Source: Betaproteobacteria bacterium
GTDB taxonomy: Bacteria; Pseudomonadota; Gammaproteobacteria; Burkholderiales; Burkholderiaceae
Assembly: GCA_009927445.1 (NCBI GenBank)
Contig: RFMZ01000212.1
Location: forward strand, 1 to 64,000
Length of the DNA stretch: 64,000 nt
Reading direction: 5' to 3'
The notes beneath the pieces were generated by a model, which worked only from the letters and a program-made list of their open reading frames with translations, was not told where the DNA came from and made no database searches. This document shows positions 27,000-29,760 of this stretch, one piece after another (the stretch's first letter is position 1; each line of letters opens with the position of its first letter). A program made the position numbers and the translations under genes.

Positions 27000-28118
27000 C
27001 TAGGATCGTCGTTTTCTCACGCCAGTTGCCAGAATGTCTAGAGTCTTTAACGAGTCAGACCAACCAAGACATGCATCCGTAATACTCTGACCAAAGAGTA
27101 ATTTCTTCGGATCATCTTTACCTGGTGTAAATTTCTGAGCCCCACCTTCTAGGTGACTTTCGATCATGACACCAAAGATAGATTGGGAGTGATTTGCCAG
27201 CTGGGCTGCCACATCTTTGGCTACTTCGATTTGAAGTTCATGTTGCTTACTTGAATTTGCATGTGAAAAGTCTATCATAATAGACGGATGTAGCTTGGAG
27301 GCTTGTAGAGCATGACAGGCCTGAGCAACACTTTTTGCATCATAGTTTGGTGTTTTACCACCGCGCAAAATGACATGGCAATCTTTATTACCGCTTGTTT
27401 CTACAATGGCAACTTGACCATTTTTGTGGACTGACAAAAAATGGTGCCCACGCGCTGCCGCTTGAATTGCATCTGTAGCAATTTTGATATTGCCATCGGT
27501 TCCATTTTTAAAACCAATCGGTGCGGATAATCCTGAGGCCAATTCGCGATGAATTTGACTTTCTGTCGTTCTTGCACCAATGGCCCCCCAAGATATTAAA
27601 TCCCCAATATATTGTGGGGAGATTACATCGAGAAATTCACTGCCAGCAGGCATTCCTAAGCGGTTAATTTCCATCAGGAGTTGCCGAGCAATGCGAAGAC
27701 CTTCATCAATCTTGCAACTCTCATCTAAGTAGGGATCGTTGATTAATCCTTTCCAGCCAACAGTAGTCCTAGGTTTTTCAAAATAAACACGCATGACGAT
27801 CTCAAGATCTTTTTTATGATGCTCACGCTGCTCTAAAAGTAACTTCGCATATTCGATTGCCGCACTCGGATCATGAATTGAGCAGGGTCCCATAATTACG
27901 AGGAGTCGATCATCACCACCTTGAAGGATGGCGCAAATTCTTTTACGAGTCTGGCTGATGAGTTTTTCCATTGGCGTGTTTGCAATTGGAAAAAACCGAA
28001 TGAGATGTTCAGGAGGTGGGAGTATGTTGATACTTTGAATCCGCCTATCATCTGTGGCAGACGTTTTATCAATACTTGCATACCAATTTTCTTGGTTATT
28101 GGGGGTTTTATCGTTCAT
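27000..28118 (-). CDS. aroG: 3-deoxy-7-phosphoheptulonate (DAHP) synthase, class I AroG type
   Basis: 372-residue enzyme condensing phosphoenolpyruvate and erythrose 4-phosphate, the entry step to aromatic amino acids. LVIMGPCSIHDP near residue 95 and RVYFEKPRTTVGWKGLINDP near residue 130 bind substrate; IMIDFSHANSSKQ and ESHLEGGAQ hold metal ligands. The N-terminal extension of about 50 residues is typical of the feedback-regulated E. coli-like isozymes, but which amino acid inhibits it cannot be told from sequence. A leader ORF rich in Trp, Phe and Tyr and a terminator/antiterminator pair lie directly upstream, so its transcription is probably attenuated when aromatic aminoacyl-tRNAs are plentiful. 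Confidence 0.96.
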   Translation of the reverse strand: MNDKTPNNQENWYASIDKTSATDDRRIQSINILPPPEHLIRFFPIANTPMEKLISQTRKRICAILQGGDDRLLVIMGPCSIHDPSAAIEYAKLLLEQREHHKKDLEIVMRVYFEKPRTTVGWKGLINDPYLDESCKIDEGLRIARQLLMEINRLGMPAGSEFLDVISPQYIGDLISWGAIGARTTESQIHRELASGLSAPIGFKNGTDGNIKIATDAIQAAARGHHFLSVHKNGQVAIVETSGNKDCHVILRGGKTPNYDAKSVAQACHALQASKLHPSIMIDFSHANSSKQHELQIEVAKDVAAQLANHSQSIFGVMIESHLEGGAQKFTPGKDDPKKLLFGQSITDACLGWSDSLKTLDILATGVRKRRS

Positions 28119-28149: not shown

Positions 28150-28178
28150 AAAAAAAACCGCCATCTATTTTGGCGGTT
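28150..28178 (-). terminator. attenuator terminator in the aroG leader
   Basis: On the minus strand, AACCGCCA-N7-TGGCGGTT (8-bp perfect stem) is followed by seven T (the last two stem bases are T as well), 31 bases before the aroG start codon. An intrinsic terminator between a promoter region and its gene is the mark of attenuation. A competing helix of ten pairs can form between TTGGTGGTTA (28219-28210) and TAACCGCCAA (28179-28170), using the same 5' arm and so dissolving the terminator. Confidence 0.85.
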
Positions 28179-28201
28179 ATTGCGAGGAAATAGTTAGAAC
28201 C

Positions 28202-28261
28202 TTACCCCTTAACCACCAAGTGGGGGATCGAAAAGTAAAAGTGAATAAATTTCCAGTTCAT
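28202..28261 (-). CDS. putative aroG leader peptide (attenuator)
   Basis: A 19-codon ORF, MNWKFIHFYFSIPHLVVKG, too short for the track. Five of residues 3-10 are aromatic: Trp3, Phe5, Phe8, Tyr9, Phe10. It ends 24 bases before the terminator stem. Codons 15-18 (TTG GTG GTT A) contain the antiterminator arm. A ribosome stalled at Phe8-Phe10 would leave that arm free, and one that reaches the stop would cover it. A small alternative hairpin, CCAC-TTG-GTGG, can also sequester it. No strong Shine-Dalgarno is visible before the ATG, which is the main weakness. The role is inferred from layout; I know of no experimental report. Confidence 0.75.
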   Translation of the reverse strand: MNWKFIHFYFSIPHLVVKG

Positions 28262-28305
28262 ATTCAATAATTTAACACAAGTTATCACGACAACGCTGTT
28301 AATCG

Positions 28306-29760
28306 TTAAACGCTACCTCCGACCACCATACTGTCCAGGCGAAGCGTCGGTTGGCCAACGCCAACAGGAACACTTTGGCCTTCTTTACCACAGACACCAA
28401 CGCCCTCGTCGAGCATGAGATCGTTGCCAATCATGCTGATTTGCTTGAGAGACTCAGGACCGTTACCGATGATCGTAGCACCTTTAACAGGATATTGAAT
28501 TTTGCCATTCTCAACCCAATAGGCTTCTGTAGCGGCAAAAACAAACTTTCCACTGGTAATATCGACTTGCCCTCCACCAAAATTAAGAGCATAAAGACCT
28601 TTTTTTAAGCTGGCTAAGATTTCAGATGGGTCGCAATGGCCACCTAACATATATGTGTTAGTCATTCTTGGTAAGGGTAAGGACGCATAACTTTCTCTTC
28701 GACCGTTTCCAGTTAGGGGCATTTTCATGAGACGTGCATTGAGTGAATCTTGCATAAATCCCGTCAGAATTCCGTCTTCTATTAAGGTGTTGCACTGTGT
28801 TGGGTTGCCTTCATCATCCATATTGAGAGAGCCTCTGCGACCGTTTAAAGTGCCATCATCTACTATAGTGACTCCCTTCGAAGCTACTTTTTGTCCGAGC
28901 TTACCTGCAAATGCTGAGGACCCTTTACGATTAAAGTCTCCTTCGAGGCCATGTCCAATTGCTTCATGCAGCAGGACGCCAGGCCATCCAGGCCCCATTA
29001 CGACTGTCATTGGGCCGGCTGGGGCAGGTTTAGATTCTAAATTAATTAATGCTGAATGAACGGCTTTATCAACCCAACTTTGTAGCAGATGACTAGTAAA
29101 AAGGCTATAGTCTGTTCTACCACCACCACCTGCGCTGCCCATTTCCCGGCGACCAGCTTGCTCCGCGATGACTGTAATGGAAACGCGTACTAATGGTCGG
29201 ATGTCTGCAGCAATATGACCATTTGCTTTGGCAATATAGACGACATCAAATTCACCGGTAAGACTTGCCATGACTTGAACAACCCGAGGATCTTTGGCAC
29301 GAGCTAATTGCTCAATTTTCTCCAATAAGGCTATTTTCTGCTCAGTTGGAAGACTATGAATCGGATCTTTAGCATGGTAGAGGATTGGTCTTGGATTTTG
29401 GGGGCCAGGATTTAAAGTAATCTTTTTTTTCCCACCTTGCAGACCAATTACTCGGGTTGATTTAGCAGCCTCCATGAGCGTATCGACATTGATTTCATCG
29501 GCATATGCAAAGGCAGTTTTTTCACCAGAAATCGCCCGTACACCAACGCCTTGATCAATACTAAAGTTACCAGATTTAACAATGCCTTCTTCCAAACTCC
29601 ATGACTCATGTCGCGTATGTTGGAAATATAAATCAGCATCATCTAAACGATACTGATACATCGTATTGAGCGCTCGTTGTAAGTCTGTTGTGTCTATACC
29701 CCCAGGCTCTAATAATAAATTTTGGGCGGTAAGAATAGCTTCAGACTGGGTATTAGACAT
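28306..29760 (-). CDS. tldD: metalloprotease TldD
   Basis: 484-residue member of the TldD/PmbA zinc protease family, which in E. coli works with TldE (PmbA) to process microcin B17 and degrade the CcdA antitoxin. The metal-binding HExxxH is seen in LLHEAIGHGLEGDF near residue 262, and GGHCDPSEILASL and GEGVGVCGK-like segments follow. The N-terminal half is the usual alpha/beta domain. The partner pmbA is not in the window. Forms a run with the downstream-oriented aroG and the upstream nitrilase gene. Confidence 0.96.
   Translation of the reverse strand: MSNTQSEAILTAQNLLLEPGGIDTTDLQRALNTMYQYRLDDADLYFQHTRHESWSLEEGIVKSGNFSIDQGVGVRAISGEKTAFAYADEINVDTLMEAAKSTRVIGLQGGKKKITLNPGPQNPRPILYHAKDPIHSLPTEQKIALLEKIEQLARAKDPRVVQVMASLTGEFDVVYIAKANGHIAADIRPLVRVSITVIAEQAGRREMGSAGGGGRTDYSLFTSHLLQSWVDKAVHSALINLESKPAPAGPMTVVMGPGWPGVLLHEAIGHGLEGDFNRKGSSAFAGKLGQKVASKGVTIVDDGTLNGRRGSLNMDDEGNPTQCNTLIEDGILTGFMQDSLNARLMKMPLTGNGRRESYASLPLPRMTNTYMLGGHCDPSEILASLKKGLYALNFGGGQVDITSGKFVFAATEAYWVENGKIQYPVKGATIIGNGPESLKQISMIGNDLMLDEGVGVCGKEGQSVPVGVGQPTLRLDSMVVGGSV

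Follow-up and report, generated by a model that had tools for sequence, protein, structure and literature searches.

In E. coli, the DAHP synthase genes aroF, aroG and aroH are controlled by the repressor proteins TyrR and TrpR at their promoters, and several isoenzymes are present. An RNA-based control is known for the enterobacterial pheA and pheST genes, whose attenuators (Rfam family RF01859, Phe_leader) comprise a Phe-rich leader ORF and a terminator/antiterminator switch. For aroF of Acholeplasma, a short ORF with Phe and a terminator downstream of it were proposed to act as an attenuator (uORFC-13-1; PMC8632094), and attenuation of the E. coli aroF is given as a hypothesis in the same study. 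uORFC-13-1 was found in Acholeplasma and environmental sequences only; it includes a ribosome-binding site and one or more Phe codons. The trpL leader of Sinorhizobium meliloti was described as leaderless and translated (PMC7298713, PMC10117765). In that species, the ORF begins with the first base of the transcript, which is terminated to a small RNA (rnTrpL/peTrpL), and the Trp leader is located upstream of trpE(G).

The locus analyzed here was found in a DNA stretch of 64,000 nucleotides (the window). The regulated gene aroG encodes a class I DAHP synthase (27000 to 28118, minus strand; TIGR00034 with 512 bits, PF00793 with 306 bits). It is separated from the upstream gene tldD (28306 to 29760, minus strand; NF008006 with 652 bits) by a gap of 187 nt, which contains the leader. 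In the genome of the window (95.6% complete), aroG is the sole DAHP synthase gene detected, with one match to PF00793 and no match to the class II family PF01474. AroG rows identical to that of the window genome group with Polynucleobacter in the AroG tree, and by this placement the genome is of the Polynucleobacter type. The sequence analysis indicates that aroG is very probably under ribosome-mediated transcription attenuation, working like the trp and phe attenuators.

The element would act on the same enzymatic step as the feedback control of DAHP synthase in E. coli, with one gene and an RNA switch in the window versus several isoenzymes and repressors. The model RF01859 aligns end to end with the window at 18.5 bits (E-value 0.99), and the curated cut-off of 55 bits is not reached; no Rfam family was identified at the gathering score in the 64-kb window. 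The element differs from RF01859 in its target, which is DAHP synthase and not pheA/pheST, in the mixed Phe/Tyr/Trp run and in the lack of a Shine-Dalgarno sequence. Compared by description, it resembles uORFC-13-1 in the DAHP synthase gene, the short Phe-containing ORF and the terminator (PMC8632094). With rnTrpL/peTrpL it would share the leaderless ORF and the terminated small RNA, whereas a mixed aromatic run precedes aroG in place of a Trp leader before trpE(G).

The preliminary description of the locus knew of no earlier account. This holds for the aroG element in the literature searched, in which none of six leader peptide strings was present; the survey of proteobacterial attenuators by Vitreschak et al. 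(2004) lay outside that search. It does not hold for attenuation of DAHP synthase genes in general, which was proposed elsewhere (PMC8632094). The aroG element represents a family absent from Rfam; the mechanism is classical and the idea of DAHP synthase attenuation is not new.

Leader ORF and promoter-like element upstream of aroG

The leader ORF MNWKFIHFYFSIPHLVVKG comprises 19 codons plus stop and is located at 28202 to 28261 on the minus strand (ATGAACTGGAAATTTATTCACTTTTACTTTTCGATCCCCCACTTGGTGGTTAAGGGGTAA). Its aromatic residues are W3, F5, F8, Y9 and F10, of which F8-Y9-F10 represent the control codons. This confirms the ORF rich in Phe, Tyr and Trp that had been reported at this position (28261-28202).

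An extended −10 element, TG-T-TAAATT (TGTTAAATT; 28269 to 28277, minus strand), was identified 7 nt upstream of the leader ATG, which would place the transcription start at or near this codon. No −35 element was found in the window by a consensus scan. Among the relatives, an extended −10 motif TGnTAnAnT ends 6–8 nt upstream of the leader ATG in 90 out of 98 sequences. A Shine-Dalgarno-like sequence could be found in none of the 98 leaders, compared to 71 of the 98 aroG starts. In Bradyrhizobium, leaderless mRNAs were reported to be preceded by an extended −10 motif TGnTA (PMC4842269). Due to the −10 spacing of 6–8 nt, the conserved absence of a Shine-Dalgarno sequence and the precedents in Bradyrhizobium and S. 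meliloti, the aroG leader transcript is probably leaderless, as is peTrpL of Sinorhizobium. The preliminary description had considered the missing Shine-Dalgarno sequence a weak point. The absence itself was found throughout, and it turned out to be a conserved feature rather than a weakness, accompanied by the extended −10 element at a distance of 6–8 nt.

For the comparison of relatives, 110 aroG loci were analyzed, 80 of them taken from GTDB species genomes and 30 from whole genomes belonging to the genus of the window, including the window's own locus. A short ORF with an aromatic-rich run and a terminator was found upstream of aroG in 98 of these, one of which (L071) is doubtful. The 12 loci without a leader are nine of a Polynucleobacter clade that lacks the element, two of Cupriavidus and one in which the contig is cut off. 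Typical leader peptides of the relatives are MSANKFYFFYFWFSAHGGREAEIQA, MRSAVFFFGYFWFSHRTGGGEASLQPR and MQVRSAFYFYFWFSVPGG, and MHLDSFYFFYFSISDLAVER is the typical peptide nearest to the clade of the window.

Aromatic codons account for 84% of the best 7-codon window of each leader, which was picked for its aromatic content. The codons used in these best windows are mixed, with TTT and TTC as well as TAT and TAC. The synonymous fraction was 0.31 in the coding frame versus 0.07 and 0.21 for the two alternative frames. Trp lies inside the aromatic run in most relatives and is lost there in the clade of the window. By codon content, it is mixed aromatics that the leader would sense.

Alternative RNA helices and their conservation

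All helices described in the following are located on the minus strand. The intrinsic terminator (28150 to 28178) consists of a hairpin formed by strands 3 and 4 and a U run. Its 8-bp stem AACCGCCA/TGGCGGTT (28178-28156) starts 23 nt past the leader stop codon and runs into eight consecutive T (28157-28150); of these, two are paired. The distance between the terminator and the aroG ATG at 28118 is 31 nt. The terminator scan of the window yielded one terminator compared to 0.2–0.4 in shuffled sequences. The earlier claim of an 8-bp terminator with a U run between leader and aroG was thereby verified, with distances correct to within about a base.

The antiterminator is formed by TTGGTGGTTA (28219-28210, codons 15–18) and TAACCGCCAA (28179-28170) and excludes the terminator stem. 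This pairing between strand 2 (UUGGUGGUUAAGGGG; 28205 to 28219) and strand 3 (UAACCGCCAA; 28170 to 28179), the latter common to antiterminator and terminator by pairing and covariation, comprises nine Watson-Crick pairs and one G-U pair and was equalled in 0 of 200 shuffles. It corresponds to the mutually exclusive 10-bp helix with one G-U pair, joining codons 15–18 to the 5′ arm of the terminator, that the preliminary description had pointed out. Two further helices were not included there. Strand 1 (UCCCCCA; 28221 to 28227) is the 5′ arm of a protector (anti-antiterminator) hairpin, for which covariation was found in relatives, and strand 2 provides its 3′ arm; in the window, this hairpin is formed in a register shifted by two bases, CCCC with GGGG. 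The second is an additional antiterminator segment, in which CCUC (28184 to 28187) pairs with GGGG of strand 2 in the fold of a transcript ending at strand 3. CCUC or UCUC directly upstream of strand 3 recurs in many relatives. The fold of the leader by itself is modest (z −1.85); the decisive evidence against a chance arrangement is the conservation among relatives.

The helices were analyzed in an alignment of 69 dereplicated leaders. Pairing of the terminator stem is kept in 95.8% of the cells; its covariation is thin, since the cores of strands 3 and 4 are nearly invariant in the relatives. For the protector helix, 37 cells with two-sided changes were found compared to 18 in shuffles, and the covariation score of 0.193 (0.115 in shuffled alignments) was reached in 0 of 500 shuffles and is well above the slid controls, shared ancestry of the leaders being ignored in these shuffles. 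The antiterminator analyzed by fixed columns does not beat the shuffles, in part since some rows are off by a base. RNAalifold recovered the terminator as the single helix in this alignment, which is expected because the alternative helices exclude each other.

Strands 2, 3 and 4 were also tallied as triples in 141 distinct leaders, with the GGYGG and CCGCC cores as anchors. At the position neighbouring these cores, the bases of strands 2-3-4 are C-G-C in 51 and U-A-U in 24 leaders, with Fisher values of 6e-11 (strand 2 versus 3) and 5e-32 (strand 3 versus 4), which disregard the relatedness of the leaders. By this tally, a single strand 3 base is accompanied by matching changes in strands 2 and 4, its predicted alternative partners. 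The case for the 2:3 helix rests on this position and on the geometry of the leader.

As to the geometry, the distance between the last aromatic codon and GGYGG is 11–18 nt in 84 of 86 leaders. The distance from GGYGG to the stop codon ranges between 6 and 31 nt, and the frame phase differs (61 versus 25). A spacing of 11–18 nt is about what would be needed for a stalled ribosome to mask strand 1 but not strand 2. In the strand 2 region, the block GGCGGUCGAGAGG is conserved in the relatives and encodes GGRE or LAVER, depending on the lineage. Since two reading frames are used, it is the RNA and not the peptide that is conserved at this block.

Folding with a masked ribosome agrees qualitatively with attenuation. 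With a stalled ribosome and strand 3 emerging, the predicted probability of the antiterminator is 0.91. In the full leader, the antiterminator competes when codons 8 and 9 are in the A-site (0.41 and 0.63), and the terminator is favoured at codon 10 (0.75). With the ribosome at the stop codon or absent, the terminator reaches 0.96. The antiterminator also forms without a ribosome if the transcript ends at strand 3 (0.86). This result and the fold at codon 10 suggest that kinetics and coupling matter. The preliminary proposal that stalling at Phe8-Phe10 would just free the antiterminator arm is in line with the spacing in 84 of 86 leaders and with the folding under a masked ribosome, except for the full-length fold at codon 10.

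Proposed attenuation of aroG and alternative explanations

The sequence and the comparison with relatives show the leader ORF, selection on its codons, the fixed distance from codons to strands, three covarying alternative helices and the position of the promoter-like element. In the following scheme, we infer the point at which transcription starts, the translation of the leader, the stalling of the ribosome, the premature termination and the physiological signal. RNA polymerase would start no more than one or two nucleotides away from the leader ATG, and a ribosome would initiate at the 5′ end of this leaderless transcript. As long as charged tRNA-Phe and tRNA-Tyr are plentiful (in most relatives, tRNA-Trp as well), the ribosome would reach the stop codon, where it would cover strand 2 or leave it in the 1:2 protector. 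Strand 3 would then pair with strand 4 and transcription would end near 28150. If aromatic aminoacyl-tRNA is scarce, the ribosome would stall on F8-Y9-F10 and occupy strand 1, freeing strand 2. The 2:3 helix would form, the terminator would be blocked and aroG would be transcribed. Most likely, the enzyme is made only when aromatic amino acids are short. The attenuator that had been proposed on the basis of the window is supported by the alignment of the aroG upstream regions, in which the relatives keep the ORF, the aromatic codon run and the terminator, and in which the helices covary.

Since the hairpin lies in the tldD-aroG gap, where it would also stop read-through from tldD, it might be regarded as the tldD terminator and the leader ORF as a chance reading frame. 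This is very improbable: different genera share the leader, its codon run and the spacing, the leader is also present in several loci where tldD was not found upstream, and the strand able to pair with the terminator arm is part of the leader ORF and covaries. There is likewise a very small chance that the leader acts at the level of translation, by coupling or reinitiation, instead of transcription termination. Short ORFs before genes can act in this way, but in the window the leader stop codon lies 83 nt before aroG, with a terminator and its U run in between. Moreover, 71 of 98 relatives have a separate Shine-Dalgarno-like sequence for aroG, and the terminator is the best conserved part of the element. 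A tRNA- or metabolite-binding RNA (T-box or riboswitch) could also provide a terminator/antiterminator switch before a biosynthetic gene. Its probability is close to nil, given that no Rfam family reached its threshold in the window, with Phe_leader (18.5 bits) as the most relevant weak match, and that selection acts on the leader codons and on their spacing.

It is unlikely that attenuation is only part of the role and that the terminated leader RNA or the peptide also acts in trans, as described for rnTrpL/peTrpL. The leaderless small-mRNA architecture as in peTrpL (PMC7298713, PMC10117765) and the nearly invariant core of strands 2, 3 and 4 would fit such a function. However, the invariance of the core is explained by the need of strand 3 for two pairing partners, and a function of the peptide is improbable, since the residues past the aromatic run vary and are read in two frames. 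The more comprehensive assumption that the element is ancient in the Burkholderiales, occurs in other classes of the Pseudomonadota and releases a terminated RNA of about 110 nt that also acts in trans on aromatic genes, like rnTrpL, is tentative and rather unlikely.

Attenuation of aroG would represent a widely conserved mechanism, by which many Burkholderiales and some bacteria of other classes may tune the shikimate flux without the TyrR/TrpR scheme. The element could serve as a model for leaderless attenuators, and its covariance model can be used for the annotation of a family that is absent from Rfam.

Distribution and loss of the element and similar leaders

In the order, 399 genomes from 158 genera were searched with the covariance model, and 114 genomes from 65 genera gave a match; the strict model and filters may miss weak members, and the weakest of the 114 are not members. 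The site in the window was found in its own genome with an E-value of 7e-10, a rough figure as the window is among the 69 training sequences. Matches upstream of aroG were obtained in 30 of the 31 rows L111-L141 (the exception has an E-value of 0.08) and in 62 of the 64 rows L142-L205. Outside the order, the element was detected in a few genomes of the class, including one of Solimonas (L049). In another class of the phylum, genomes of 3–9 Mb carry it upstream of aroG with leaders such as MITVATNYFWYFSYDSSLAAGGSRSI.

Weak matches recover Phe-rich leaders, MKTLSFFFAFFFTFP and one more, upstream of pheA- or pheS-like genes, which represents a useful internal control. Matches above an E-value of about 1e-6 without aroG (L205, L217-L231) were other attenuators of pheA/pheS-like and leuA-like genes as well as noise and were not counted. 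A second match in the genome of the window (contig C232, E-value 0.08) is a terminator alone between SURF1-like and cox3-like genes and was rejected.

Of the 151 genomes of the genus, 27 have retained the element. The Polynucleobacter rows without it (L017, L024, L029, L030, L074, L107-L110 and L232-L251) form one clade of 29 rows in the AroG tree with a support of 100/99, which is consistent with a single loss. In this clade, the tldD-aroG gap is 16–57 nt, compared to about 176–217 nt where the element is kept. A −10-like sequence, TTAAAATA or TTAGAATA, is located a few bases upstream of the aroG ATG, which suggests that the aroG mRNA itself became leaderless. Kept in one part of Polynucleobacter and lost in another, the element offers an evolutionary contrast, or natural experiment.

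Further leaders resembling attenuators were observed. A leucine attenuator of the same design precedes leuA in the genome of the window (L207, contig C124; MIFDKHLFLILSLLALDHLTGARDRVC) and in a genome of the same genus (L146; MNTNFSLLLLLELGQNLGSVHA), each leader followed by a terminator of the type ACCCCAG...CTGGGGTTTT. Leu-rich short ORFs (MFSIRQSVLLLLANDPTGPALEHVC and MELFIAALLSLLLLSRLKDRAGSRARVKATQR) upstream of one and the same kind of protein in two genomes of the order (L224 and L225) are possible leucine attenuators. In a genome of family f49 (L226), a leuA-like gene is preceded by a short ORF with a Leu run, MKQISLALLLSPHGRRR, and an aromatic leader-like ORF, MADMVTFSVVYNVYFYWYRSSGGAKGC, was found before a protein other than AroG (L227).
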